Source: Burkholderiaceae bacterium (GTDB lineage: Bacteria; Pseudomonadota; Gammaproteobacteria; Burkholderiales; Burkholderiaceae_E). From it: DNA of 64,000 bases. The notes below the pieces were generated by a model. That model searched no databases, was not told the DNA's origin, and saw only the letters and a program-made list of their open reading frames with translations. The first letter of the stretch is position 1, and every line of letters starts with the position of its first letter. The stretch is from positions 186,001 to 250,000 of the forward strand of contig JAMLIR010000001.1 of NCBI GenBank assembly GCA_023954045.1, in the 5' to 3' direction. Positions 442 through 52,381 of this stretch are shown here, one piece after another. The translations under genes were made by a program, and so were the position numbers.

Positions 442-1425
442 TCAGCCGGAGGATCGCCGCGGCGCAGCCGCCGCCGTGGCGCTACCCGCGACGGCCGCCA
501 GCGCCACTGCAAGCAGCGCTGCCACCGCGTTGTGCAGCGTGGTCGTCAGCAGCGGTTGCGTGCCCAGCGCCGTGCCCACGCCGAGCAGCAGTTGCGCTGC
601 CACCAGCAGGGCCAGCCACGCGGCCACCACGGGACGCGCGGCGCGCAGCCGCAGCGCCAGCAGCGCGACCGCGATCGCGAGCAGCATCCCGGCGAGACGG
701 TGCGCCACGTGCAGCCCCCGTGCCGCGGCGGCATCCACCGCGACCGCCGCCCGCGTCGGATCGAGCGCCGCAGCGTCGAAGCGCGCCCCGCTGGCGCACA
801 GCGGCGTGGCGCAGGCGTCGATCGCGTGGCGCGCGCCGATCATCGTGCCGCCCCAAGCGAGCAGGCCGACCAGCACGAGCGCCGCGACGGCGACGCCGCG
901 CGCGCCGGGCGCCACGCCGCGGCCGCTGCGCGCGGCCGCGATCCAGGCGAGCGCCGCCGCCAGCAGCAACCCGCCGACGAGGTTGCCGAGGGTCACCAGC
1001 GGCAGGTCGTGCGGCGTATAGCGTCCCAGCCAGGAGAGGAAGACCGTGTCGGCGAGCGCGACGGCCGCGGCGACGCGCGCGCCAGCGCCCATCGACGACC
1101 AGCCGAACACGACGACCAGCAGCACCAGCACGCCGGCCAGCGTCGCGCTCATGCGGTGCAGCGCGCGCGCGATCCGCACCGGCGGCGGCGCTTCGGCCGA
1201 CGGGACGTTGGCGATCGTCGCGACCGCCGCGTCGAGCGCGCTGCGCCCTGCGCTCGCGCCCGCGCCCGCGCCGGGACCCGGCGCGGCTTCGGACGGCCGC
1301 CCAGCCCGATAGCAGTCGGGCCAGCCCTCGCAGCCCACGCCGTTGCCCCAGTGACGGATGAACGCGCTCGACGCCGTGATGCACACCGTGAGCAGGCACG
1401 CGGCCAGCGCCAGCGCGCGGATCAT
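442..1425 (-). CDS. ctaA: COX15/CtaA-family heme A synthase-like membrane protein
   Basis: 327 aa with about eight hydrophobic helices. It belongs to the COX15/CtaA family, which hydroxylates/oxidises heme O to heme A. Visible family features are the N-terminal G-C-E-G-W-P-D-C segment (the CxxWPxC loop), a loop with DACATPLC that places a second cysteine pair, and histidines in helices (ALHRMSA, HVAHRLAG, TLHNAVAA). It is the last gene of the leftward respiratory operon; its ATG overlaps the preceding stop as ATGA (1422-1425). It presumably matures the heme of one or both heme-copper subunits upstream. Its presence argues for a heme A or heme O cofactor. Exact product (heme A or a variant) cannot be told from sequence. 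Confidence 0.8.
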   Translation of the reverse strand: MIRALALAACLLTVCITASSAFIRHWGNGVGCEGWPDCYRAGRPSEAAPGPGAGAGASAGRSALDAAVATIANVPSAEAPPPVRIARALHRMSATLAGVLVLLVVVFGWSSMGAGARVAAAVALADTVFLSWLGRYTPHDLPLVTLGNLVGGLLLAAALAWIAAARSGRGVAPGARGVAVAALVLVGLLAWGGTMIGARHAIDACATPLCASGARFDAAALDPTRAAVAVDAAAARGLHVAHRLAGMLLAIAVALLALRLRAARPVVAAWLALLVAAQLLLGVGTALGTQPLLTTTLHNAVAALLAVALAAVAGSATAAAAPRRSSG

Positions 1426-2843
1426 CGGGTGCGCCTCGCGGCGATCACGCTGTCGAGCACCACCCAGATGAACAGCACACCGCCGACGATCGCCAGCAGC
1501 CCGCCGAAGCCCATCAGGCCCATGCCGAACACCTCCTGCGTGCTGCGCAGCGTCTGCTCGGCGCCCGCCACCTTGCGCTGCACGCCGTAGCCGCCGGACC
1601 ACATCAGCCCGAGGATGTGCAGCAACTGACCGCCCCCGTAGACCCAGGGCTGCCAGTTCGCGATGCGGCCGGTCGCCTCGCGATAGCCCAGGCGCGGCAG
1701 CAGCGCGTAGGCCAGCCCCATCAGCGCCAACGTCACGCCGACGATCGAACCGTGATAGTGCGCCGGCACGCGGACGTCGGACCCTTCGATCAGGAAGCCG
1801 AGCAGGCCGCCCGCCGAGAACAGCAGCAGCGACGCGATCAGCGACGCGCGCAGCGGCCTCGTGGCGGGCGTCGGCGCGACGCGGCGCGCGAGAGCAACGG
1901 CCAGCGCCAGCACCATCGGCAGGATCGCGAGCCCGCCGCCGAAGCGCATCAGCCAGGTCATCATCTTGCGGTACTCGACCGACGGCACGCTCCAGTTCAG
2001 GTGGATCAGCGGCGCGGCGAACACCGACACCAGGCCGATCGCGTAGACGAGCACGACGACGCGCGGGCTGAGCGGCAGCGGCGAGCCGGTGAGCGTCGCC
2101 AGCCAGGCCCACGCGACCAGCATCAGCAGCGTCCAGGTGAACTGGACCACGTGGCCCGGCCCCCAGAACAGCAGCTCGTAGTAGGTGCGCGGATCGAGCT
2201 CGCGCGGCACTTCGACCACCGACCACGCCAGCGACATCAGCGCGACGGCGCTCGAGACCGCCGCCGCCTTCAGGCCGAAGCGCAGCGCGTCGGCGCCGTC
2301 GAGTTGCAGGCTCATCCGCGCCGGCGCGACGAACGAGCGCAGCGTGAGCAGCAGGAACCCGGCGCCGAGCACGACCAGCCCGTACAGGAAGGTGTCGTTG
2401 TCGAGCACCGGCACGTAGTTCGACATCACCGGCGTCGCCGCGCCGGTGAACGGCGCCACCGCCATGAACAGCGTGCCGATCCCGGTGACCCAGAGCGCGA
2501 GCCAGCCGAGCCAGAGCCAGCGCGGCGACGTGTCGATCGTCCAGAGCATGCCCGCCATCGACACGAACCAGACCAGCACCGACAGGTCGACGTGCACCAC
2601 GAGCGCGACCCGGAAGAAGTCGCCGGCCGGAACCAGGTTGGCGAAGAACGGCGTGCGCGCGAGCACCAGCAGGATCGAGAACACGCCGGCGCCGATCAGC
2701 GCCGCGACGCCGAGCAGCAGCCAGCCGGCCGCGATCGCGCGCTGTTCGGTTGCGGGAACCGCGACGTCGAAGCGATCGTCGCGCGCGCTCGCCGGCGCGC
2801 TTCCGATCTGGCGGGGCAAGCCCGCTGTCGGTGCCCCGCTCAT
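1422..2843 (-). CDS. Divergent heme-copper oxidase subunit I-like protein lacking the active-site tyrosine
   Basis: 473 aa, about 12 transmembrane helices. Heme-copper family landmarks are present: H84 in helix II (VVHVDLS), H231 in helix VI (GPGHVVQF) and the H362-x-H364 pair in helix X (PAHYHGS). Two canonical features are missing. The residue four after H231 is F235, where oxygen-reducing A/B-type enzymes have the cross-linked Tyr, and helix VII shows only one His (H281, PLIHLNW) instead of the usual His-His copper ligands. It is shorter than a typical CoxA (about 530 aa). It sits between the small anchored protein (ATGA overlap at 2840-2843) and the CtaA-like gene (ATGA overlap). It could be a second reductase core, an NO-reductase-like enzyme, or a non-catalytic heme membrane subunit. 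Confidence 0.8.
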   Translation of the reverse strand: MSGAPTAGLPRQIGSAPASARDDRFDVAVPATEQRAIAAGWLLLGVAALIGAGVFSILLVLARTPFFANLVPAGDFFRVALVVHVDLSVLVWFVSMAGMLWTIDTSPRWLWLGWLALWVTGIGTLFMAVAPFTGAATPVMSNYVPVLDNDTFLYGLVVLGAGFLLLTLRSFVAPARMSLQLDGADALRFGLKAAAVSSAVALMSLAWSVVEVPRELDPRTYYELLFWGPGHVVQFTWTLLMLVAWAWLATLTGSPLPLSPRVVVLVYAIGLVSVFAAPLIHLNWSVPSVEYRKMMTWLMRFGGGLAILPMVLALAVALARRVAPTPATRPLRASLIASLLLFSAGGLLGFLIEGSDVRVPAHYHGSIVGVTLALMGLAYALLPRLGYREATGRIANWQPWVYGGGQLLHILGLMWSGGYGVQRKVAGAEQTLRSTQEVFGMGLMGFGGLLAIVGGVLFIWVVLDSVIAARRTR

Positions 2844-3346
2844 CGGATCACCACCCCGCCCTGGTCGGGAATGAAGTCGATCAGGACGACCTGCCCCGGC
2901 ACGACGGTCATCCGCCGTTCGCCCTCGTGGTTGAAGCCCTTGACGCGCACGTCGTCGTTGAACTGCACGCGCAGCTGGTGATCGCCGGACGCGATCGGCA
3001 GGCGGCGATAGCCGCTGGCCGCGCCGTCGCGCCGCAGCCCGGCCGGCTGGAAGGTCTCGTCGTAGAGCACCTTGCCGTCGAGTTCGACGCGCACGTGCAC
3101 CGGCGAGCGCTCGCGCGGGCAGTCCATCTGCGCGCGCAGCTGCGGCGGCAGTTTGGCCAGTTCCTCGGGCGTGCGCGCGCGGCAGTCGGTCGCGAACTGG
3201 CCGGGATGCCGGAACGACAGCCGCAGCAGCGCCTCGCCGGGCGCGAGGTGCTGGTACGCCGGCGCGGTCGAGAAGTAGCCGATGAACGCGGCGAACAGCA
3301 GGTAGAGGATTCCCTGTCCGCCGTACCGCAGCAGCGCGCTAGCCAT
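2840..3346 (-). CDS. Small membrane-anchored hypothetical protein of the respiratory cluster
   Basis: 168 aa. One N-terminal hydrophobic helix (residues about 7-27, GILYLLFAAFIGYFSTAP) is followed by a soluble domain with three cysteine-containing stretches (TDCRART, QMDCPRE) and an all-beta looking C-terminus (RRMTVVPGQVVLIDFIPDQ). No family recognised. The topology suggests an N-in anchor with a periplasmic beta-sandwich, as in small assembly or accessory subunits. It is co-translated with both neighbours: its start lies eight bases inside the stop of the cytochrome b fusion and its stop overlaps the next start as ATGA. That tight coupling suggests a stoichiometric partner of the divergent subunit I or an assembly factor. 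Confidence 0.75.
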   Translation of the reverse strand: MASALLRYGGQGILYLLFAAFIGYFSTAPAYQHLAPGEALLRLSFRHPGQFATDCRARTPEELAKLPPQLRAQMDCPRERSPVHVRVELDGKVLYDETFQPAGLRRDGAASGYRRLPIASGDHQLRVQFNDDVRVKGFNHEGERRMTVVPGQVVLIDFIPDQGGVVIR

Positions 3347-4928
3347 GTCCGTGTTCTCCGAAAGTACGCCGGCGAACGCCGCCGGCCGCCGATGCCGACC
3401 CGGCCGCGGCGAGCCGCGACCCGAACTCTTCGATCCCCGCGTCCAGCGCGGCGCCCTCCTCGCGGCCGGCGCGGATCACCTCGACCCGCGCGCGATCGAC
3501 GCCGCGGCGCAGGCGCGGCTCGCGAGTGCCCGCGATCCGCTCGGTGGTCCATCCTACCCCGAAGCGGTACTCGCAATCCCCCTTCGCGCACGTGGCCACG
3601 ACCACGCCGGCGGCGCCCGCCCGCAGCCCGTATTCCACGAACGACGGCGGCAGCATCCCCGCGCAAGGCAGCTCGAAGCCGAGCACGCCGTCGCGCACCG
3701 CCGGCCGCGCGCCGTGCCGGCACGAGAACACCAGCGTCGCGCCGGCGGCGCCCGGCTGCCGGAACGCGGCTTCGACCTCGTCGCGCAGCGTGCCCACCGT
3801 CAGGTCCGGCAGGTCGATGCCGCTCACCAGCCGCACGCCGGGCCGGAACGGCACCGCCGACGGGCACGAGCCCGCGCAGATCCCGCACGACGCGCACCGG
3901 TCGTCGTCGACGACGGCGATCTCGCCCTCGCCCCCGGGATGCGGCGCCATCGCGATCGCGGCGAACGGGCAGTCGGCGAAGCAGATCCGGCACCCGTTGC
4001 AGTGATCGGGATCGACCTTCGCCGGGGCCGGCCGTGCGTGGGCGCCCAGCCATGGCGCCACGCCGATCAGCAGCGTCAGCCCGAGGGTCGCCGCCCAGAC
4101 GACGGCCGGGGACCACGCATAGATCGCCGGCAGCGGCGCGAGGTAGAACCAGTCGATCGGCAGCGCAGCGGGCAACCGTCCCAGGTCGGCGGGGGGCTGC
4201 GAGACGGCGGGCATCGCCAGGGACAGCGCGAGCATCGCACCCAGGCTCCACAGCGCCACGGCGCGGCTCGCGCCGGTCTGCGGCCGCGTGAGCCGCTGCA
4301 CGTGCGCCCACATCGCCAGCAGCAGCACCAGTGGCAGGCCGACGTGCAGGAACACCACCAGCGAGAACAGCCGGTCGGAGACCGCGCCCTCGGCGATGAA
4401 GTTGCGCACCAGCGCGGGACCGAAGCCGGGCAACGCGCCGAACCACTCGGTGGTCGCCGTGGCGACGAACAGCGCCACGGTGTCCCAGACCATCCAGTAG
4501 CCGATCACCCCCGCCGCGACGGCCAGCCAGAGCGTCGGCACGCCGCTCACCCACGAGTACCACCGGAAGCCGCGAAAGCGCCCGAGCATCAGCTCGCGCA
4601 GCAGGTGCAGGATCATCACCGCGACGAACGCGTCCGACGCGTAGCGATGAAGGCTGCGCATCACGCCGCCTGCCCACCACTGGCCGTGCGTGAGCGACTC
4701 GACCGACGCGTGCGCGCCGTCGACGCTGGTGTCGTAGAAGACGTACAGGTAGCCGCCGGTCAGCGCGATCAGCCAGAACAGGTAGAAGCCCAGCCCACCG
4801 AGCTGGCGCAACGGGTTGTCCGGCTCGCCGCAGATCCGGTCGAGCCCGTGCTCGAGCGCCCGCCACGCGCGGGCGGCGCGGCCGCCGCGCGGCGGCTCGA
4901 CGGGACTCTGGGACAGGAACACGGACAT
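3339..4928 (-). CDS. Cytochrome b N-domain fused to 2x[4Fe-4S] ferredoxin and MvhD/FrhD-like iron-sulfur domain
   Basis: 529 aa from ATG 4928 (a GTG 36 bases upstream is possible but would add an odd Arg-rich leader). Residues 40-215 are a four-helix cytochrome b domain with two bis-His heme sites, H94/H108 and H195/H209, each pair 14 residues apart as in bc1 complexes. More helices lie at 220-300. Residues 310-320 and 345-355 each carry CxxCxxCxxxCP, giving two [4Fe-4S] clusters. Residues 398-460 resemble the delta subunit of methyl-viologen-reducing hydrogenase (C403, C422, C447 and C452 in ATCAKGDCEYRFG). It probably moves electrons between a soluble donor and quinone or the oxidase. It is downstream of SCO and couples to the next gene by an eight-base overlap. 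I know of no named family with this whole architecture. Confidence 0.85.
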   Translation of the reverse strand: MSVFLSQSPVEPPRGGRAARAWRALEHGLDRICGEPDNPLRQLGGLGFYLFWLIALTGGYLYVFYDTSVDGAHASVESLTHGQWWAGGVMRSLHRYASDAFVAVMILHLLRELMLGRFRGFRWYSWVSGVPTLWLAVAAGVIGYWMVWDTVALFVATATTEWFGALPGFGPALVRNFIAEGAVSDRLFSLVVFLHVGLPLVLLLAMWAHVQRLTRPQTGASRAVALWSLGAMLALSLAMPAVSQPPADLGRLPAALPIDWFYLAPLPAIYAWSPAVVWAATLGLTLLIGVAPWLGAHARPAPAKVDPDHCNGCRICFADCPFAAIAMAPHPGGEGEIAVVDDDRCASCGICAGSCPSAVPFRPGVRLVSGIDLPDLTVGTLRDEVEAAFRQPGAAGATLVFSCRHGARPAVRDGVLGFELPCAGMLPPSFVEYGLRAGAAGVVVATCAKGDCEYRFGVGWTTERIAGTREPRLRRGVDRARVEVIRAGREEGAALDAGIEEFGSRLAAAGSASAAGGVRRRTFGEHGHG

Positions 4929-4974
4929 GCTGGACCGGCGCGATGGCAGATGCCTGGGAAACACCCGGACGCGC

Positions 4975-5826
4975 TCAGGCGCGCGTCGACCGCCGCAGCT
5001 CCCGCATCACCACCCAGCCGATCGCGCCCAGCGTCGTCAGGCCGGCGAAGATCTCGAAGAACAACGAATAGTTCGCCCGATAGCCGCCCGTCACCGGATC
5101 GTACACGGTGCAGTAGAGGACGACCTTCTCCCAGAGGTTGCCGAGCGACGGCGACTGCGAGGCCTGCCCCGACAGCAGCTCCTTCAGCGGCTGCACCAGC
5201 ATCGGCAGGTCGAAGTTCTCGCCGTAGACCTGCCGGTAGATCAGGCCGTCGGCGTCGACGATCGTCACCTGCGTGACGTGGTCGAAGCCCTTCGGCGTCG
5301 CCTCGTAGGTGAAGCCGAGGCTGGCGGTCAGCGCGTCGATCTGCGCGGGGTCGGGGCTGAGGAACGCCCACCCCGGCTCGTCGATGCGGTTCTGGCGCCT
5401 GAATGCCGCCATCGCGGCCGGGCTGTCGAACGGCTGGTTGAAACCGATCGAGACGACGGCGAACTTGTCCTCGCCGAGCGCCTGGCGCGCGGTGCGCACC
5501 GCGCGCGCGAGGAACTGCGTGGCCACCGGACAGGCCTGGAAGCAGCCGGTGTAGACGAGGCTGACCAGCAGCGGACGCCCGCGGTAGTCGCTCAGCCGCA
5601 CGTCGCGGCCGTCGGTGTCGCGCAGGCGGATGTCGGCCACCGGCCGGCCGATCACGGCCTGGCTGGCCTCGAGCGCCTTGCGGTAGTCGGGCGCGCGCGC
5701 TGCGCCGTCGCCGCCCTCGGCCCGCGCCAGCGGCATTGCGACGACGGCCAGCGCCGCCGCGGCGGCCAGCGCCAGCCGGCGCCAGACGCCCCCGCGGGGC
5801 GCCGCCCGGAGCGAGCGCCCTCCCAT
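4975..5826 (-). CDS. SCO1/SenC-family copper chaperone with C-terminal membrane anchor
   Basis: 283 aa. A signal/anchor helix (about residues 17-35, LALAAAAALAVVAMPLA) precedes a thioredoxin-like SCO domain with the copper-binding CxxxC motif in YTGCFQACP and the later conserved His in KGFDHVTQ. A second hydrophobic helix near the C-terminus (FFEIFAGLTTLGAIGWVVM) is unusual for SCO1. The ATG at 5826 is preferred over GTG 5841 because GAGGG sits five bases upstream of it. SCO proteins insert copper into the CuA site of oxidase subunit II, and the subunit II encoded at 8442-8981 has a full CuA motif. It lies between cyoE and the cytochrome b/Fe-S fusion. Confidence 0.9.
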   Translation of the reverse strand: MGGRSLRAAPRGGVWRRLALAAAAALAVVAMPLARAEGGDGAARAPDYRKALEASQAVIGRPVADIRLRDTDGRDVRLSDYRGRPLLVSLVYTGCFQACPVATQFLARAVRTARQALGEDKFAVVSIGFNQPFDSPAAMAAFRRQNRIDEPGWAFLSPDPAQIDALTASLGFTYEATPKGFDHVTQVTIVDADGLIYRQVYGENFDLPMLVQPLKELLSGQASQSPSLGNLWEKVVLYCTVYDPVTGGYRANYSLFFEIFAGLTTLGAIGWVVMRELRRSTRA

Positions 5827-5833
5827 CGTGCCC

Positions 5834-6700
5834 TCAGGCACCGAGCGCAGCCCGCATCCAACCGTCGGCGATCGTTCCGAGCAGCAGCAGCGAGAGCTGG
5901 ATCAGCGAGGCGTGGAAGCTCGCCATCGCGTGGGCGCGACTGGGGGCGAGCGCCAGCACCAGCGCGCGCCAGACGAGCAGTGCGCCGCCAGAGGCCGCGC
6001 AGGCCAGGTACAGCCACCCCGGGCTGAGCAGCGCCAGCGCGAGCGACAGGCCGACCATCACGACCGCGTGGCCGAAGATGGCCCACGCCGCGAAGCGATC
6101 GCCCATCACCACCGGCAGCATCGGCACGCCGGCCTCGGCATAGTCGTCGCGAAAGACGATCGACAGGCTCCAGAAATGCGGCGGGGTCCACAGGAACAGG
6201 ACCAGCGCGAGCAGCAGTGCCTCGTTCGAGAGCCCGGGCGAGACCGCCGCGGCGCCGGCCAGCACCGCGAAGCTGCCCGCGAGCCCGCCGATGACGATGT
6301 TCCAGGCGGTGCGCCGCTTCAGCCACACCGTGTAGACCACCGCGTAGCAGAATGCGCCGAGGAACGTGTAGAGCGCGGCGCTGGCGTTGGTCGCGAGCCA
6401 GGCCGCCGCGACGGCGATCCCGGTGAGCGCGACGATCAGCGCCAGCCATCCGCCATGGTGGCGCATCCGCCCGGAGACGAACGGGCGCCGGCGGGTGCGC
6501 GCCATCCGCGCGTCGAGGTCGACCTCGTAGTACTGGTTGAAGGCCCCTGCCGCCGACGAGGACAGCAGCACCGCGAGCGTGAGCACGACTGCCTGCCAGG
6601 GCGATACCGCCGCTCCCGGCGAGACCATCAGGCCGGCGACCGCGGTCAACGCGATCGCCACCCCGATGCGCAGCTTGAACAGGTTCAGCAAGGCCCTCAT
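5834..6700 (-). CDS. cyoE: Protoheme IX farnesyltransferase (heme O synthase)
   Basis: 288 aa UbiA-family prenyltransferase with about nine hydrophobic helices. The prenyl-diphosphate/Mg site is visible as NQYYEVDLDARMARTRRRP near residues 55-73, the CtaB/CyoE signature (NxxxDxxxDxxMxRTxxRP). It adds a farnesyl chain to heme B to give heme O, the substrate of the CtaA-like protein at the end of the same operon. Its start is 25 bases downstream of the subunit I stop, and its stop lies just before the SCO start. Together these place heme O/A making, copper insertion and two subunit I proteins in one transcript. Confidence 0.95.
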   Translation of the reverse strand: MRALLNLFKLRIGVAIALTAVAGLMVSPGAAVSPWQAVVLTLAVLLSSSAAGAFNQYYEVDLDARMARTRRRPFVSGRMRHHGGWLALIVALTGIAVAAAWLATNASAALYTFLGAFCYAVVYTVWLKRRTAWNIVIGGLAGSFAVLAGAAAVSPGLSNEALLLALVLFLWTPPHFWSLSIVFRDDYAEAGVPMLPVVMGDRFAAWAIFGHAVVMVGLSLALALLSPGWLYLACAASGGALLVWRALVLALAPSRAHAMASFHASLIQLSLLLLGTIADGWMRAALGA

Positions 6701-6725
6701 GTCACGCCTCGCCCGACCCTGGGGA

Positions 6726-8429
6726 TCAGCTCAGGCCCCAGACCGTCGACAGGTACTTCCAGTTGACGAAGTAGTACAGCACGAACGCGGTCAGGAACAC
6801 CAGCGCGAACACGAAGGTGCCCGGGGCGGAGGCGCTGCCGTGCCCGCCGTGCCCGGTGAGCGCGGCCTGCACCGGCAGGCGCAGCGGGCTGACCGTGGTC
6901 GTGTAGGCGCCCGCGTCGAGCTTCTTGCCGAACAGCAGCGTGCCGACCGTGATCAGGATGTACATCGCGCCGCCGACGATCGCGATCACGCCCGAGACGC
7001 CGCAGATCGCCAGCATCAGCAGCGCGGTGCCCGGGTACTCGTACGGCAGCGCGGCGCCGGCGAACGTGATGTCCCAGTGGCGGCGCGGCACGCCAAGGGT
7101 GCCCGCGCCCATCATCGCCAGCGTGAACACGCCCATCCCCAGCCCGAAGATGTACGGCTGCCACTTCGCCCAGCCCGGCAGGATCATCTCGCGGTTGAAC
7201 AGCACCGGGAGCAGGAAGTAGGTGAGCGACATGAACGCGAGCGTCGTGCCGATCACCACGGTCGCGTGGAAGTGCCCCGGAACGTAGATCGTGTTGTGGA
7301 TGATCATGTTCAGCTGCTCGGTGCCCATCATCACGCCCGAGATGCCGCCCAGGAAGCCGAAGCCGATCAGCGAGATGAACATGCCCGAGAACACCGGGTT
7401 GCCCCACGGCGCCTTGCGCAGCCACTCGAACAGCCCCTTCGTGTAGCCCTTCTCGCGCTGCGCCACCTCGATCGCGCCCGGCACCGTCAGGCCGTGGAGC
7501 ATCGAGGCCAGCACCGCCAGGTACATCGCGTAGCTGGTGTTGAACACCTTCCACTCGGTGCCCACGGCCGGGTCGGCCAGGATGTGGTGGGCGGACGCGA
7601 GTTGCAGGAACAGGATGTAGAGCAGGAACGCGCTGCGGCTGATGCGCTCGGACATCGGCTTGGCGCCGAAGACGATCGCGGCGATCGCGTACCAGACCGC
7701 GATGTGCGCGCTGACGTTGATCTGCTGCGACGAGTGCCCGAACGCCCACCAGATCACCCGGTACATCGCCGGGTCGATGTGCTTGATGTAGCCCACCGAC
7801 CACAGGAACGTCGGGATCAGGATGATCGCGCCCGAGGCGATCGTGAAGATCGCGATGATGCAGGCGGTGAGCGCGCCGAAGGTCACCAGCGGGATCGAAC
7901 CCTCGTAGGTCTTCTCGGCGCGCGCGACGACCAGCGTGCCCAGGAAGATGAAGCAGCCGACCAGCGCGCCGACCGCGAAGAGGATCAGGCCGAGGTAGAA
8001 CGCCGGGTGCGCGGGCAGCGGCACGTACGAGGTCATCATCACCGTCGCATTGCCGGTGAAGATCGCCGCGTTGAAGGTCAGCGTGCCGATCACCATCAGC
8101 GCGAACGCCAGCCACGCGAGCCGCGGCGTCGCCAATCGGCATCGCAGCAGCGTCGACGAGCAGAAGTACAGGATCGCGATCTCGAAGAAGATGATCCAGA
8201 CCACCAGCATGTCCAGGCCGTGCGCGGTCAGGAACAGGTAGAAGTTGTCGGCGTCGATCAGGTGGATCGCCTGCCAGCGCGTGAGCGTGATCAGCAGCGC
8301 GAGGATGCCGCCGACCAGCAGCGACACGACGGCCGCGACCGCGTTCAGCTTGATCAGCGGCTCGGCCGACTTGTGGAACTGCAGCCCCGTGCGGGGGCAG
8401 ATCCGGAACTGCGCTTGAGCGGTTGCCAT
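6726..8429 (-). CDS. Heme-copper oxidase/NO reductase subunit I with GHSSQQ in place of GHPEVY
   Basis: 567 aa with about 13-14 transmembrane helices. Metal ligands seen: H70 (low-spin heme, LTAHGLDML), H232 (CuB, helix VI), H281-H282 (CuB, helix VII, ASAHHILAD), H386 and H388 (helix X, VPGHFHATV). Position H232+4 is Q236 (GHSSQQINVS); the Tyr that is covalently linked to the CuB His in O2-reducing A and B oxidases is absent. That change, a CuA subunit II and an adjacent SCO/SenC gene match what is described for the sNOR group of nitric oxide reductases (norSY-senC of Nitrosomonas). On the other side, cyoE and a ctaA-like gene in the same operon suggest a farnesylated heme, more usual in oxidases. 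The catalytic reaction (NO or O2) is undecided. Confidence 0.88.
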   Translation of the reverse strand: MATAQAQFRICPRTGLQFHKSAEPLIKLNAVAAVVSLLVGGILALLITLTRWQAIHLIDADNFYLFLTAHGLDMLVVWIIFFEIAILYFCSSTLLRCRLATPRLAWLAFALMVIGTLTFNAAIFTGNATVMMTSYVPLPAHPAFYLGLILFAVGALVGCFIFLGTLVVARAEKTYEGSIPLVTFGALTACIIAIFTIASGAIILIPTFLWSVGYIKHIDPAMYRVIWWAFGHSSQQINVSAHIAVWYAIAAIVFGAKPMSERISRSAFLLYILFLQLASAHHILADPAVGTEWKVFNTSYAMYLAVLASMLHGLTVPGAIEVAQREKGYTKGLFEWLRKAPWGNPVFSGMFISLIGFGFLGGISGVMMGTEQLNMIIHNTIYVPGHFHATVVIGTTLAFMSLTYFLLPVLFNREMILPGWAKWQPYIFGLGMGVFTLAMMGAGTLGVPRRHWDITFAGAALPYEYPGTALLMLAICGVSGVIAIVGGAMYILITVGTLLFGKKLDAGAYTTTVSPLRLPVQAALTGHGGHGSASAPGTFVFALVFLTAFVLYYFVNWKYLSTVWGLS

Positions 8430-8441
8430 GTTCTCCCCCGG

Positions 8442-8981
8442 TTACTTGACGTACAGCCTCGAGACCATCTTGTGATGGCCGATGCCGCAGAACTCGTTGC
8501 AGACGATCGCGTACTGGCCCGAGCGGTTCGGCGTGATCGTCACGACGTGCTGGTAGCCGGGCAGCACCTGGATGTTGATGTTCTCGGGTTGCAGCGAGAA
8601 GCCGTGCTGGTAGTCCATGGAGGAGAGGTTCAGGCGGTAGGTCTTGCCCTTTTCGAGCTCGAGGATCGGCCACCAGTCCCACAGGCGGGCGATCAGGTAG
8701 ACGTCGCTGCCGGCGGGCGGCGCGACCACGGGGACCTTGTTCTCGCCGTCGGTGCGCACCGTGTACTTGTCGACCATGTCCTGCGCGGCCTTGGCGAACA
8801 GCTCGGGCCTGACCTTGTACGTTTCGGTCGACAGGTTCTGCTTACCGTACACGTGCCAGTACGGCATCATGAAGAACATGATCATGCACCAGACGAAGGC
8901 GATCACGATCCAGAGGATCTCGATCTTGTCGACTGGCTGCTTCCACCAGATTCGCTGCTGCGGGGGCAGTATCGCGCTCAC
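8442..8981 (-). CDS. Heme-copper oxidase subunit II with CuA site
   Basis: 179 aa. One N-terminal membrane helix (residues about 20-43, IEILWIVIAFVWCMIMFFMM) is followed by a periplasmic cupredoxin domain. The full binuclear CuA set is visible: H126 (DYQHGF), C161, E163, C165, H169 and M172 in CNEFCGIGHHKM. The single helix and short length resemble ba3-type subunit II rather than two-helix CoxB, and no fused cytochrome c is present. It receives electrons from a periplasmic donor and passes them to subunit I, encoded 12 bases downstream. SCO in the same operon is the expected CuA metallochaperone. Confidence 0.92.
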   Translation of the reverse strand: MSAILPPQQRIWWKQPVDKIEILWIVIAFVWCMIMFFMMPYWHVYGKQNLSTETYKVRPELFAKAAQDMVDKYTVRTDGENKVPVVAPPAGSDVYLIARLWDWWPILELEKGKTYRLNLSSMDYQHGFSLQPENINIQVLPGYQHVVTITPNRSGQYAIVCNEFCGIGHHKMVSRLYVK

Positions 8982-9008
8982 GGATCTTCTCCTTGTATTC
9001 GCGAACGA

Positions 9009-9194
9009 TCACTTGGCCAGCGGCGTGACCGGAACCGTGGCGATCTCCATCACCCCCCAAAGGATGTAGAGCACGGTCGGCAGCGCGACCCCGAGGAACA
9101 GCAGCAGGAACGGGTTGTCGAGGATCTGCTGCATCACGGGTACGCGTTCTTCGTCTTGTTGGGCTCCGGCCTGCGATTGAGCATGGTCAGCCAT
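9009..9194 (-). CDS. Small single-helix membrane protein, first gene of the respiratory operon
   Basis: 61 aa. ATG 9194 is chosen because GGGGAG lies about six bases upstream; a longer reading from 9269 has no ribosome site. A polar N-terminus (MADHAQSQAGAQQDEERVPV) leads to one hydrophobic helix (NPFLLLFLGVALPTVLYILWGVM). It is 27 bases upstream of the CuA subunit gene. Small one-helix subunits of this kind (for example subunit IIa of ba3 oxidase) stabilise heme-copper enzymes, so an accessory subunit is the likely role. No specific family recognised. Confidence 0.75.
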   Translation of the reverse strand: MADHAQSQAGAQQDEERVPVMQQILDNPFLLLFLGVALPTVLYILWGVMEIATVPVTPLAK

Positions 9195-9233
9195 GGCAGC
9201 TCCCCTTCCCGATGTCGAAATGGATTGGTAACG

Positions 9234-9282
9234 CCGGCCATCATGGTTGGCGCCCGCGTGCAGTCGCATTGACTCGAATCAA
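9234..9282 (-). promoter_or_regulatory. Probable class II FNR/DNR-dependent promoter of the leftward respiratory operon
   Basis: On the minus strand the dyad at 9269-9282 lies about 30 bases upstream of CATGAT (9240-9245), a four-of-six match to TATAAT. A transcript starting near 9233-9234 would put the dyad centre at about -41 to -42, the classic activator position for FNR-type proteins, with a leader of about 40 bases before ATG 9194. The spacing is seen in the sequence; the regulator is inferred. Confidence 0.55.
9269..9282. promoter_or_regulatory. FNR/ANR/DNR-type binding site
   Basis: TTGAC-TCGA-ATCAA matches the CRP/FNR-family consensus TTGAY-N4-RTCAA exactly. It is the only such full dyad I found in this 294-base divergent intergenic region. 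FNR/ANR sense oxygen loss and DNR/NNR sense nitric oxide; the sites cannot be told apart by sequence. Either would fit a low-oxygen or NO-responsive terminal reductase. Confidence 0.7.
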
Positions 9283-9372
9283 GTCTTGTCCAGTTGCCGC
9301 GCTGCAGCAGTCCGGAAACCGCAACGCCGCACCGAGCGCCGCGCCCACTGTGGTTTGCGCGTCTCCATGTAC

Positions 9373-9401
9373 TTGCAAGGGCTTTGCGATGCGGCTAGGG
9401 T
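9373..9401 (+). promoter_or_regulatory. Possible sigma-70 promoter for the cytochrome b-ferredoxin reductase gene
   Basis: TTGCAA (9373-9378), 17 bases, then TAGGGT (9396-9401), about 88 bases before the TTG start at 9489. The -35 is good (four of six), the -10 is weak (three of six). A TTGAT half-site follows at 9405. Tentative. Confidence 0.3.
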
Positions 9402-9488
9402 CCGCTTGATTTGCCTGCCGGCCGCGTGCAGCGCGCCGGCCATCGGATGCTGCGCCGCACCGGGCGCCCGGCACGACGGAGAATTGCG

Positions 9489-11402
9489 TTGCTCAAGACA
9501 ATCCAGGCCCTGCTGCAGTGGTTCTTCCTGCGGATGGAGGCCGTCGGCAACCGGGTGTTCGGCGACCGGCTGAACCCGATGTACTACCTCGGCGCGACCA
9601 GCTACTGGATGTTCTGGATCGTGGTCGCGAGCGGCCTGTACGTCTACGCCTTCTACGAGACCGGCATCGACAAGACCTACGCGTCGATGCAGTCGATCAC
9701 GCACGGCCAGTGGTTCGCCGGCGGCATCATGCGCAGCGTGCACCGCTACGCCTCCGACGCGATGGTGCTCACGATGCTGCTGCACATGGTGCGGCACTTC
9801 GCCTTCGATCGCTACCGTGGCTTTCGCGCGTTCTCGTGGGTCACCGGCGTGATCGTGCTGTGGCTGGTCTACGCGTCCGGGGTCAACGGCTTCATGCTGC
9901 CCTGGGACAAGCTCGCGCAGTTCGTCGTCATCGGCACCACCGAGTGGCTCGACGCGCTGCCGGTGTTCCGCGGCATCCTGACGCGCAACTTCATCACCCC
10001 TGAGGCGATCACCGACCGGCTGTTCTCGCTGCTGTCGTTCCTGCACATCGGCATTCCGCTGGTCGTGCTGCTGGCGCTGTGGATCCACACGCAGCGGGTG
10101 CCGCGCGCCTCGCAGATGCCGCCGCGCCGGCTCGCCTACGGGCTGGTCGCGATGCTGCTCGTGCTCGCGCTGGTCAAGCCGGTCGTGAGCCAGGCGCCGG
10201 CCGATTTCGGCACGGTGCCGACGCGGCTCGACTTCGACTGGTTCTACCTGACCGTCTATCCGCTGATCTACGCGTGGGATCCGCTGAAGCTGTGGATCGT
10301 CTGCGCCGGGGCGACGCTGCTGCTGCTGGCGATGCCGTGGCTGCCGCCGGCGCGCACCGGCAAGGGCCAGAGCTACCACCTGGTCGCGCATCCCGGCCGA
10401 CAGGGCGCGCCGGTGCGCGCGGGCGAGACGCTGCTCGACGCGGGGCTGCGCGCGGGAATCGCGCTGCCGTACGAGTGCCGCTCGGGCGGCTGCGGCGTGT
10501 GCAAGGCGACGATGATCGGCGGCCAGGTCGAGATGTCGGGCTACCAGCCGAGCGCGTTGTCCGAGGACGAGCGCCGCGCGGGCCGCATCCTGCTGTGCTG
10601 CGCGCGCGCGCTCTCCGACGTCGAGTTCGAGTACGAGGAGGACGCGGCCGCGCGCGGCACGCGGATCGCCACCTACCAGGCCCGCGTCGAACGGCTCGAG
10701 AAGCTCGCGCACGACGTGATGCTGGTCGCGCTGCGGCTGGACCGGCCGATCGAGTTCGAGGCCGGGCAGTACCTGAACATCGTGCTCGAGGACGGCGCGC
10801 GCCGCAGCTATTCGTTCACCACCCCTTCGGGCGCCACCGACCTGGTCGAGTTGCACGTGCGCCTGATGCCAGGCGGACGCTTCACCACCCGCGTGTTCGA
10901 GTCGATGAAGGTCGGCGACCCGATCACGTTCGAAGGCCCGGTCGGCTCGTTCGTGCTGCACGAACCGAGCGACAAGCCGCTGATCTTCGTCGCCGGCGCG
11001 ACCGGTTTCGCGCCGGTCAAGAGCCTGCTCGAGCAGGCGTTCCGCATGGGGATCGAGCGGCCGCTCTACCTGTACTGGGGAGTGCGCCGGCTGCGCGACC
11101 TGTACATGACGGATCTGCCGCAACGCTGGGCCCGCGAGCACCCGAACTTCCGCTTCGTGCCGGTGCTCTCCGAGCCCGCGCCCGAGGACGCGTGGAACGG
11201 ACGCACCGGGCTGGTCCACGCGGCGATCCTCGCCGACTTCCCCGACCTGTCCGGGTTCTCGGTCTACGCCTGCGGCTCGGTCCGGATGGTCGAGGCCGCG
11301 CGGCCGGCGTTCGTCGCCCAGGGGCTGAACGAGGACGCCTGCTACTCCGACGCGTTCACGCCGTCGGCGGCGCCCGGGCCGGCCGCGGCCCGGCAATCGT
11401 GA
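9489..11402 (+). CDS. Cytochrome b N-domain fused to [2Fe-2S] ferredoxin and FAD/NAD(P)H reductase
   Basis: 637 aa from TTG 9489, chosen because GGAGAA (9478-9483) sits five bases upstream; ATG 9447 is in frame but lacks a ribosome site and would add an Arg-rich leader. Residues 30-205 are a four-helix cytochrome b domain with heme pairs H85/H99 and H186/H200. Residues 296-380 are a plant-type ferredoxin with C330, C335, C338 and C370. Residues 395-630 are an FNR-type module with the FAD motif RRSYSFTTP, the NAD-site VAGATGFAPVKS and a late YACGS. It could carry electrons from NAD(P)H through FAD and 2Fe-2S to membrane hemes and then quinone, or the reverse. It diverges from the oxidase operon, and its cytochrome b half is clearly paralogous to the one encoded at 3339-4928. 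Confidence 0.85.
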   Translation: MLKTIQALLQWFFLRMEAVGNRVFGDRLNPMYYLGATSYWMFWIVVASGLYVYAFYETGIDKTYASMQSITHGQWFAGGIMRSVHRYASDAMVLTMLLHMVRHFAFDRYRGFRAFSWVTGVIVLWLVYASGVNGFMLPWDKLAQFVVIGTTEWLDALPVFRGILTRNFITPEAITDRLFSLLSFLHIGIPLVVLLALWIHTQRVPRASQMPPRRLAYGLVAMLLVLALVKPVVSQAPADFGTVPTRLDFDWFYLTVYPLIYAWDPLKLWIVCAGATLLLLAMPWLPPARTGKGQSYHLVAHPGRQGAPVRAGETLLDAGLRAGIALPYECRSGGCGVCKATMIGGQVEMSGYQPSALSEDERRAGRILLCCARALSDVEFEYEEDAAARGTRIATYQARVERLEKLAHDVMLVALRLDRPIEFEAGQYLNIVLEDGARRSYSFTTPSGATDLVELHVRLMPGGRFTTRVFESMKVGDPITFEGPVGSFVLHEPSDKPLIFVAGATGFAPVKSLLEQAFRMGIERPLYLYWGVRRLRDLYMTDLPQRWAREHPNFRFVPVLSEPAPEDAWNGRTGLVHAAILADFPDLSGFSVYACGSVRMVEAARPAFVAQGLNEDACYSDAFTPSAAPGPAAARQS

Positions 11403-11453: not shown

Positions 11454-12650
11454 ATGCCTGCCAACCGCCCGTCTGCGCGCCACCCGATCGAGGCGCCGGA
11501 GGGCGCCGCGCGGCGCCGCTCGCGCTGGCCTCTGGGCGACATCGGCGTCGAGCGCTTCATGCGCGATTACTGGCAGCGGCGGCCGCTGCTGGTGCGCCGG
11601 GCGTTGCCGGGGCTGCAGCCGCCGCTCGACGTCGACGCATTGCGCGCGCTCGCCGCGCGCGACGAGGTCGAGTCGCGGCTGGTGAGCGCCTTCGACGGGC
11701 GCTGGCGCCTTCGGCACGGGCCGTTCGACGCAGGTGCGCTGCCGGGTCTTCGCCGGCGGCGCTGGACGCTGCTGGTGCAGGGGGTGGACCTTCACGACGA
11801 GCGCGCGCACGCGCTGCTCGCGCGCTTCCGCTTCGTCCCGGACGCGCGGCTCGACGACCTGATGATCAGCCTCGCGTCCGACGGCGGCGGCGTCGGACCT
11901 CACCTCGATTCCTACGACGTCTTCCTGGTCCAGGCGTGGGGACGGCGGCGCTGGCGCATCGGCTGGCCCGCTTCGCGCGAACTCGTCGCCGGCCTGCCGC
12001 TGAAGGTGCTGGCGCGCTTCGAGCCGAGCCACGAGTTCGTGCTCGAGCCTGGCGACATGCTGTACCTGCCGCCGGGCTGGGCGCACGACGGCGTCGCAGA
12101 GGGCCCGTGCATGACCTGCTCGGTCGGCTTTCGCGCGCCGTCGCGGCACGAGTTCCTCGCGGCGTTCCTTGCCGATGCGGCCGAGGCGCCGGGCGGCGCC
12201 GATCCGCGCTTCGGCGATGCCGGGCGCCGCGCGGTCACCCGGCCGGCTCGGGTGCCGGCCGACCTGCATGCGCAGCTCGCGCGCTGGGCGCGCGACTGGC
12301 GACCCTCGCCCGCCGCGATCGACGCCTTCGTGGGCCGCTTCCTGACCGAGCCGAAGCCGCAGGTCTGGTTTCAGCGTGGGCAAAAGCTCGCGGCCGGACG
12401 CTTCGCCGCGCTTGCCGCGCGCGACGGCGTGCGGCTCGATCGGCGAACCCGGATCGCCTACCGGCGCCAGGTCTTCGTGAACGGCGAGGCCTTCGAGGCC
12501 GGCCGGCGCGCCGCGCACTGGCTGCGCCGGCTGGCCGACGCGCGCCGCCTCGGCCCGCGCGACGCGGCGCAGGCGCTCGCCGAGCCGCGCTGCACCGAGC
12601 TGTTGCTCCAATGGTACGAGGCGGGCTGGCTGCACCTGGCGGAAATCTGA
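11454..12650 (+). CDS. roxA: Ribosomal protein uL16 arginine 3-hydroxylase (cupin/JmjC family)
   Basis: 398 aa. It belongs to the RoxA/YcfD family of Fe(II)/2-oxoglutarate oxygenases, which hydroxylate an arginine of ribosomal protein L16. The N-terminus has the family segment FMRDYWQRRPLLVRRALPG (residues 35-53). The iron facial triad is visible as H150-x-D152 (VGPHLDSYDVF) and H211 (PPGWAHDG). A winged-helix-like C-terminal domain follows. It begins 51 bases after the cytochrome b-reductase fusion on the same strand, but no functional link is evident. A Pro/Arg-rich N-terminal extension may reflect an over-early start. Confidence 0.9.
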   Translation: MPANRPSARHPIEAPEGAARRRSRWPLGDIGVERFMRDYWQRRPLLVRRALPGLQPPLDVDALRALAARDEVESRLVSAFDGRWRLRHGPFDAGALPGLRRRRWTLLVQGVDLHDERAHALLARFRFVPDARLDDLMISLASDGGGVGPHLDSYDVFLVQAWGRRRWRIGWPASRELVAGLPLKVLARFEPSHEFVLEPGDMLYLPPGWAHDGVAEGPCMTCSVGFRAPSRHEFLAAFLADAAEAPGGADPRFGDAGRRAVTRPARVPADLHAQLARWARDWRPSPAAIDAFVGRFLTEPKPQVWFQRGQKLAAGRFAALAARDGVRLDRRTRIAYRRQVFVNGEAFEAGRRAAHWLRRLADARRLGPRDAAQALAEPRCTELLLQWYEAGWLHLAEI

Positions 12651-52255: not shown

Positions 52256-52381
52256 TCACGCCTCCGGATGCGATCCCCCATGCTAAGGCCCGCTCCGAAC
52301 CCGGCCTTGACCCCGGTCAAGCGCCTCGGGCGCGCCCCCTGCGCCTCGGGAAAGTCCCGGGGTGCCGCGCACGCCCGGCCG

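Follow-up and report, generated by a model that had tools for sequence, protein, structure and literature searches.

Gene Content of the Locus

We analyzed a 64,000-nt stretch of the genome of a Burkholderiaceae bacterium (contig JAMLIR010000001.1), here called the window, in which positions 442–11402 carry a putative nitric oxide (NO) reductase (NOR) system. The locus consists of two divergent transcription units, a minus-strand operon of nine genes and a single plus-strand gene encoding a cytochrome b-FAD-NAD fusion. Read along the minus strand, the operon encodes a 61-aa peptide, a CuA subunit II, subunit I, CyoE, SCO, a second cytochrome b fusion (the MvhD fusion), orf168, a further protein with the subunit I fold (SubI-2) and a CtaA-like protein. 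The last three genes each overlap the preceding gene by 4 to 8 bases. The features are as follows:

442–1425, minus strand: CtaA/COX15-like membrane protein (PF02628, 45.5 bits; start codon ATG)
1422–2843, minus strand: SubI-2, heme-copper-oxidase fold predicted to lack the CuB site (PF00115, 62.6 bits)
2840–3346, minus strand: orf168, 168 aa, N-terminal transmembrane anchor and beta-domain (predicted model with a local distance difference test score, pLDDT, of 95.1)
3339–4964, minus strand: diheme cytochrome b (b6/subunit-IV-like, six transmembrane helices)-2[4Fe-4S]-MvhD/FlpD fusion (Pfam; hydropathy)
4975–5841, minus strand: SCO/SenC copper chaperone (PF02630)
5834–6700, minus strand: CyoE/CtaB heme O synthase (TIGR01473, 256 bits, over the cut-off)
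6726–8429, minus strand: subunit I of a probable eNOR-type NO reductase, with six His and Gln236 in place of Tyr (alignment, Pfam, residue signature)
8442–8981, minus strand: subunit II with a complete CuA site, His126, Cys161, Glu163, Cys165, His169 and Met172 (Pfam, alignment)
9009–9194, minus strand: 61-aa peptide with a single transmembrane segment, head of the operon (57 sequences aligned; hydropathy)
9269–9282, no strand: FNR/DNR-type palindrome TTGACTCGAATCAA (exact motif match in the divergent promoter region)
9411–11402, plus strand: diheme cytochrome b-[2Fe-2S]-FAD-NAD(P)H reductase fusion (Pfam; the real start is possibly somewhat downstream)

Every part listed in the original prediction was found, at roughly the positions it gave, and the 61-aa peptide and orf168 are further members of the set that it had not named. 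The peptide sits where B-type enzymes have their small subunit, a likeness by position alone. Subunit I was found at full length in 13 of 17 other genomes of the same genus, as a fragment in one and not at all in three. As other genomes of the genus and the order have the same set of genes, the locus is not a chance assembly.

Subunit I Carries the Residue Signature of eNOR

In the window protein the residue four positions past the helix VI His is Gln, not Tyr. The cross-linking helix VI Tyr of heme-copper O2 reductases is likewise replaced by Gln in all 59 aligned members of the subunit I family, these being the rows left once six B-type or odd rows had been set aside. Tyr occupies the position in all 14 B-type and 3 odd sequences examined. 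All six heme/CuB His are present in the window protein. Across the family the His of helices II, VI and VII and the first of helix X are invariant (59/59), and the second of helix X is present in 57/59, making the set complete in 57 members; the CuB ligands are retained in every one (59/59). The CuA ligands of subunit II are conserved at 0.95–1.00 across 62 sequences. Among the equivalents of the K-type proton channel, for which we assume ba3 residue numbering, Tyr248 (59/59), Ser261 (55/59), Ser309 (59/59) and Thr315 (55/59) are kept or nearly so; Tyr133, Tyr237, Tyr244 and Thr312 are changed.

The residue at the Tyr position has been used to tell the families apart: according to Table A4 of PMC8756737 it is Gln in eNOR, Asn in sNOR and CuANOR, Asp in gNOR and Tyr in oxidases. 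For subunit I, which has the published eNOR signature, this residue test points towards eNOR. The original prediction had likened subunit I, subunit II and SenC to the norS-norY-senC (sNOR) arrangement; this assignment is not supported, the Gln/Asn signature being the ground for rejecting an sNOR identity of subunit I.

Subunit I is related to the B family, its nearest solved structures being a heme-copper oxidase (7deg) and Thermus ba3. In a quick tree of 51 rows, which holds no sNOR sequence and no biochemically tested eNOR (reportedly that of Rhodothermus), the family groups with Gln-type proteins of Thermus and Thermomicrobium (support 94), and the 14 Tyr-type B enzymes are separate from the Gln-type family (97). 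Branches to NorB, aa3 and some SubI-2 rows are long in this quick tree, and the joining of SubI-2 to subunit I is therefore unsure.

Two sets of relatives depart from the usual ligand pattern. In the Gln-type subunit I proteins from two Thermus plasmids (L095, L096), Lys replaces the second helix X His, which is a ligand of the low-spin heme; the L096 homologue has an annotated nirS at a distance of ∼3.5 kb. The second set is an odd, third heme-copper clade (L044 on G046:C46, L143 on G165:C8 and L236 on an Azospirillum plasmid), in which Tyr aligns with the first helix VII His. In L044 and L143, Tyr also stands at the first helix X His (‘LYH’, ‘PGYFH’), with an adjoining subunit II match.

Two Cytochrome b Fusions and orf168 Accompany Subunit I

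Both fusions are paralogous diheme b6-type cytochromes b with a subunit-IV-like extension, and both have the four heme-ligand His of bc1/b6f cytochrome b. The MvhD fusion conserves His106/120/207/221 along with its cluster Cys, and the FAD-NAD fusion conserves His111/125/212/226 and Cys356/361/364/396 (alignments of 33 and 47 rows, retained from 82 and 81 matches by filtering on length and motif, together with the window query). Hydropathy and positive-inside counts predict six helices with both ends cytoplasmic for the MvhD fusion; in the FAD-NAD fusion just four helices exceed the hydropathy threshold. A Pfam scan of the ten locus proteins gave no match to a Rieske or cytochrome c1/f partner.

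The fusions are accompanied by orf168, which has near-invariant Cys55, Cys76 and His123 and occurs in two copies in a few operons. The window protein matched no Pfam or NCBIfam family and no PDB fold at E ≤ 0.001, and neither a sequence nor a fold match supported a cupredoxin or a Rieske-like carrier. On the Defluviimonas plasmid (L094), one fusion and orf168 are followed by a hemerythrin-family gene, with no SubI-2 match. At L039 15652–17509 (genome G005), two separate tblastn matches suggest a divergent cytochrome b-FNR gene that may be split in two.

To assess co-occurrence we used a sample of 399 genomes of the order, in which 35 carriers were defined by a subunit I match at E ≤ 1e-100. 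With the cytochrome b part as query, matches were obtained in 36 of the 399 genomes, comprising all 35 carriers and 1 of the 364 others (G185, a 580-contig assembly). Outside the order the cytochrome b type was found in 27 of 28 carriers tested, the one missed being G493 (G641, which has a subunit I fragment only, was left out of this search). It was found in none of three genomes with a Tyr-type B enzyme only (L141 was read and the other two classed by scores), and in one of five with SubI-2 only (G558). We also compared 80 named loci from the genome collection, which overlap in part with the other surveyed genomes, and regarded the 50 with at least 9.5 kb downstream as well covered. At least one fusion, orf168 and SubI-2 occur together in 49 of these, the exception (L169) having the cytochrome b start only. 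Both fusions are present in 42 of the 50, CyoE in 45 and a CtaA-like match in 29. The original prediction had proposed a specialized, Tyr-less terminal reductase that receives electrons through two cytochrome b proteins, and had named a neighborhood survey of fusions and oxidase as the check; the near-perfect co-occurrence supports it.

The direction of electron flow through the fusions could also be the opposite, with quinol oxidized on the periplasmic side and the membrane potential driving the reduction of NAD(P)+ or of an acceptor at low potential, in parallel with eNOR instead of supplying it. The subunit-IV-like region of both fusions has a conserved Asp-Trp (D276-W277; D271-W272) at what we take to be the PEWY position, which in the MvhD fusion falls on the predicted periplasmic side; this and the missing Rieske and cytochrome c1 matches among the ten proteins would fit such reverse transport. 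However, a link with NO reduction is suggested by the near-exclusive co-occurrence with eNOR and by the shared operon, and we regard reverse transport as unlikely.

Most Carriers Encode NirS-Family Proteins and Many Lack a Detected NorB-Type NOR

The 35 carriers were compared with 37 other genomes, which were taken from the listing of the search tool and not chosen at random. At E < 1e-50, NirS-family domains were found in 33/35 carriers vs. 6/37 comparison genomes (Fisher p = 4e-12; as in the survey as a whole, the statistic ignores kinship among related genomes, which are not independent). At the stricter E < 1e-140 the counts were 30/35 and 6/37. The calls for G324, G342 and G413 are weaker or partial matches, and we assume that the NirS-family domain PF02239 is able to match NirF and NirN too. 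In 15 carriers, subunit I has a NirS-family gene no more than 20 kb away. NirK exceeded the family cut-off in 1/35 carriers and 8/37 comparison genomes, matches under the cut-off (e.g., G338, G392) being left out of the counts. The two groups were not separated by nosZ (PF18764; 9/35 vs. 7/37). In the window genome, the NirS, NosZ and NorB-like matches sit on contigs other than that of the locus.

A NorB-type NOR was detected with one window-genome query (E ≤ 1e-20) in 14/35 carriers and 14/37 comparison genomes. Zeimonas arvi and Quisquiliibacterium, two cultured environmental carriers, are among the genomes with such a match (G007 and G299). Among nitrite-reductase-positive genomes the proportions were 14/34 carriers vs. 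14/14 comparison genomes (p = 9e-5), leaving 20 of the 34 carriers with no detected NorB-type NOR. As these 20 NirS-family carriers gave no NorB-type match, the subunit I enzyme is the sole NOR detected there. NirS-family genes are present in 20 of the 21 carriers in which no NorB-type NOR was found; genome G134 gave neither a nitrite reductase nor a NorB-type match. An operon of eNOR with NirK has been described in Ardenticatena (PMC4653789).

The link of the fusions to eNOR could be one of shared denitrification regulation, with the fusions feeding nitrite reduction or heme d1 proteins (NirS/NirN). In four genomes (G074, G151, G159, G342), NirS-family genes are found about 2 kb or less from a fusion. 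Against this, none of the six NirS-positive, eNOR-negative comparison genomes has a cytochrome b match, and in most carriers read a fusion belongs to the eNOR operon. We therefore hold this explanation to be quite improbable.

Subunit I might instead be a high-affinity B-type O2 reductase, given that B-type ba3 enzymes are its nearest solved structures and that one paper makes the case for an oxidase role of the Nitrosomonas B-type ‘sNOR’ (PMC6967387). The Gln that replaces the cross-linking Tyr in 59/59 members, whereas Tyr is present in all 14 B-type sequences of that tree, argues against O2, as do the strong co-occurrence with nir genes and the frequent absence of a NorB-type NOR; an O2 reductase is very unlikely. 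The original prediction had left the substrate as NO or O2. Because nitrite reductases co-occur and many carriers have no NorB-type NOR, NO is favored and O2 disfavored.

SubI-2 and the CtaA-Like Protein

SubI-2 has a predicted structure (AlphaFold, pLDDT 88.5) that resembles ba3 oxidase (Foldseek template modeling score 0.74, by query length). Its helix II, helix VI and both helix X His are kept in 60/60 aligned members. The helix VII His-His is found in 0/60, with a lone His at the second of these positions in 15/60, including the window copy, and Phe stands at the Tyr position in 60/60. SubI-2 thus appears to have heme ligands but no CuB site, because none of the 60 members has the His-His pair. 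The original prediction had listed SubI-2 as a second, still more divergent subunit I-like protein. For all its oxidase fold and its helix II, VI and X His, we consider its being a second terminal reductase extremely improbable given the missing helix VII His-His, the invariant Phe and the absence of a second subunit II from the operon (Pfam scan of ten proteins). Lacking a predicted CuB site, SubI-2 was rejected as a second catalytic subunit.

At E < 1e-60, SubI-2 is absent from 2 of the 35 carriers (G342, G413) and from the Defluviimonas plasmid stretch, so that it may not be strictly required; the plasmid search gave no SubI-2 match. Relatives also occur outside eNOR operons. Of 17 such stand-alone relatives examined (L093, a partial match, was left out), 10 adjoin heme A synthase or cytochrome c maturation genes. 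Six are next to CtaA (L117, L123–L126, L128; called by PF02628 for L124, from sequence for L117 and by clustering for the rest). Four lie in cytochrome c maturation clusters (L059–L061, L063; called by Pfam on the L059 and L060 genes and by clustering for L061 and L063). Tetratricopeptide repeats are fused to the relatives at L059, L061 and L063, of which L059 lies inside a Ccm/ResB-type cluster. The relative at L121 is, judged from sequence, beside an aa3-like operon, and that at L062 is ∼3 kb from an eNOR operon and beside a weak SCO match. For L118–L120, L122 and L127 the stretch read shows no such neighbor, and some of these contigs end nearby.

Heme A synthase has a conserved E-x-x-H-R motif (PMC12808453). 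In the CtaA-like protein this reads R-x-x-H-R, with Arg for the conserved Glu, in 19/19 rows including the window (tblastn at E ≤ 1e-10; weaker CtaA matches elsewhere lie outside this count), and the window protein has no NCBIfam match. Of the heme O and heme A maturation put forward in the original prediction, the heme O part stands with CyoE, and the heme A part is weakened by this replacement. Judged from their neighbors and missing residues, both SubI-2 and the CtaA-like protein most likely serve in assembly or heme handling rather than in catalysis.

The Shared Promoter Region

The divergent promoter region shared by both units contains an exact FNR/DNR-type box. An exact TTGAY-N4-RTCAA box precedes 50 of 114 distinct operon heads vs. 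1.8 expected, where the scan covered the 350 bases before the 61-aa peptide match, the expectation was taken from random stretches of the same loci, and related genomes are not independent. Thus, the locus is probably under an FNR/DNR-type regulator. A second exact match to the motif at window positions 52307–52320, near likely ABC transporter permease genes, is probably unrelated. Beyond the FAD-NAD fusion, a gene for a JmjC/ROXA-like 2-oxoglutarate oxygenase is found at 11454–12650; the same holds at varying distance for five other stretches of the genus.

Proposed Function and Significance

Taken together, we consider it likely that the locus encodes an eNOR-type NO reductase with its maturation proteins and with cytochrome b inputs dedicated to it, one linked to NAD(P)H and the other to Fe-S. 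The parts, their ligands, their conservation and their co-occurrence are direct results of computation; the substrate, the electron direction and the complex membership are what we infer from them. The enzyme core would be formed by the 61-aa peptide, the CuA subunit II and the Gln-type subunit I, with heme O supplied by CyoE and copper by SCO, and would catalyze 2 NO + 2 e- + 2 H+ → N2O + H2O. The two paralogous diheme cytochrome b proteins would deliver electrons to this core, one through its cytoplasmic NAD(P)H-FAD-[2Fe-2S] reductase and the other through its 2[4Fe-4S] and MvhD domains, which would serve a low-potential partner; orf168 is probably a periplasmic partner of both. Electrons would pass from the cytoplasmic donor to the Fe-S centers, from heme b to heme b across the membrane, and then to CuA, either directly or via quinol/cytochrome c, and to the heme/CuB site.

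Several points weigh against this assignment, among them the non-random comparison genomes, the kinship that the statistics ignore and the makeup of the tree. The NOR search used a single divergent query at E ≤ 1e-20, with one positive (G078) at 1.7e-22, so that some NORs may be missed. The window genome also encodes a protein with the NOR-type Glu that we read as NorB-like, although it has no NCBIfam match; eNOR would therefore not be its only NOR option. Not every fusion is part of the eNOR operon; four genomes have one next to NirS-family genes, and the fusions and orf168 may also serve nitrite reduction by NirS. Finally, the Gln-type homologues of Thermus and Thermomicrobium show no fusion within the stretches read, and fusions are thus not needed by Gln-type enzymes overall.

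A more far-reaching version is a new kind of respiratory assembly, in which the two cytochrome b modules carry electrons from cytosolic NAD(P)H and from a low-potential Fe-S donor directly across the membrane to the NO reductase, without recourse to complex I, the quinone pool or bc1, with the CuB-less oxidase-fold protein and the CtaA-like protein as its heme-loading device. We regard this as conceivable but doubtful. Direct feeding of NO reduction by the fusions would allow respiration from NAD(P)H, or from donors at the ferredoxin level, to NO. SubI-2 would represent an oxidase fold that has been put to a new use in heme handling.

One report describes an anammox-reactor denitrifier with nirS but no norBC (PMC8402940). 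Annotated plasmid records label relatives of the present genes as cbb3-type or b(o/a)3-type cytochrome oxidase. As many carriers have no detected NorB-type NOR, such labels mean that carriers can be mis-scored as NO emitters, and genes annotated as O2-using oxidases can be overlooked in counts of nitrous oxide producers.

Comparison With Known Systems

The eNOR family is reportedly a family of heme-copper NO reductases treated by Hemp and Gennis in 2008 and by Murali et al. in 2024. The present enzyme shares with it the Gln at the Tyr position, the six His, the cupredoxin subunit II and the relation to the B family, and eNOR has been reported from Proteobacteria (available parts of PMC8756737, PMC10734462 and PMC8114936). 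The locus differs in adding two cytochrome b fusions, orf168, SubI-2 and the CtaA-like protein, partners that go unmentioned in those parts of the published eNOR accounts compared. The eNOR itself is already known; no account of its pairing with the fusions, orf168 and SubI-2 turned up in the literature searched, a body of work that does not extend to Murali et al. 2024.

The sNOR (norS-norY-senC) of ammonia oxidizers and the Bacillus qCuANOR are similar in having a Tyr-less B-type subunit I, a CuA subunit II, SCO/SenC and a small peptide, and one Bacillus cluster also has a heme O synthase, as here (PMC3475470, in the part available). Both have Asn at the Tyr position, where Gln is found here.

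The cytochrome b parts have their best NCBIfam match in ExtP/ExtQ, b-type cytochromes of a selenite/tellurite reduction operon, but at 90–99 vs. 290 bits, far under the cut-off, and here they are fused to NAD(P)H or Fe-S modules. The C-terminal part of the MvhD fusion matches HdrA2, as in HdrA2/MvhD modules, from which it differs in that no HdrA flavin domain was found and its cytochrome b is of the b6/bc1 type. The joining of 2[4Fe-4S] and MvhD domains to a membrane cytochrome b presumably makes it similar to Qmo-type complexes. The CtaA-like protein shares the COX15 family match and the His motifs with heme A synthase (CtaA/COX15), and is set apart from it by the Arg that takes the place of the conserved Glu.

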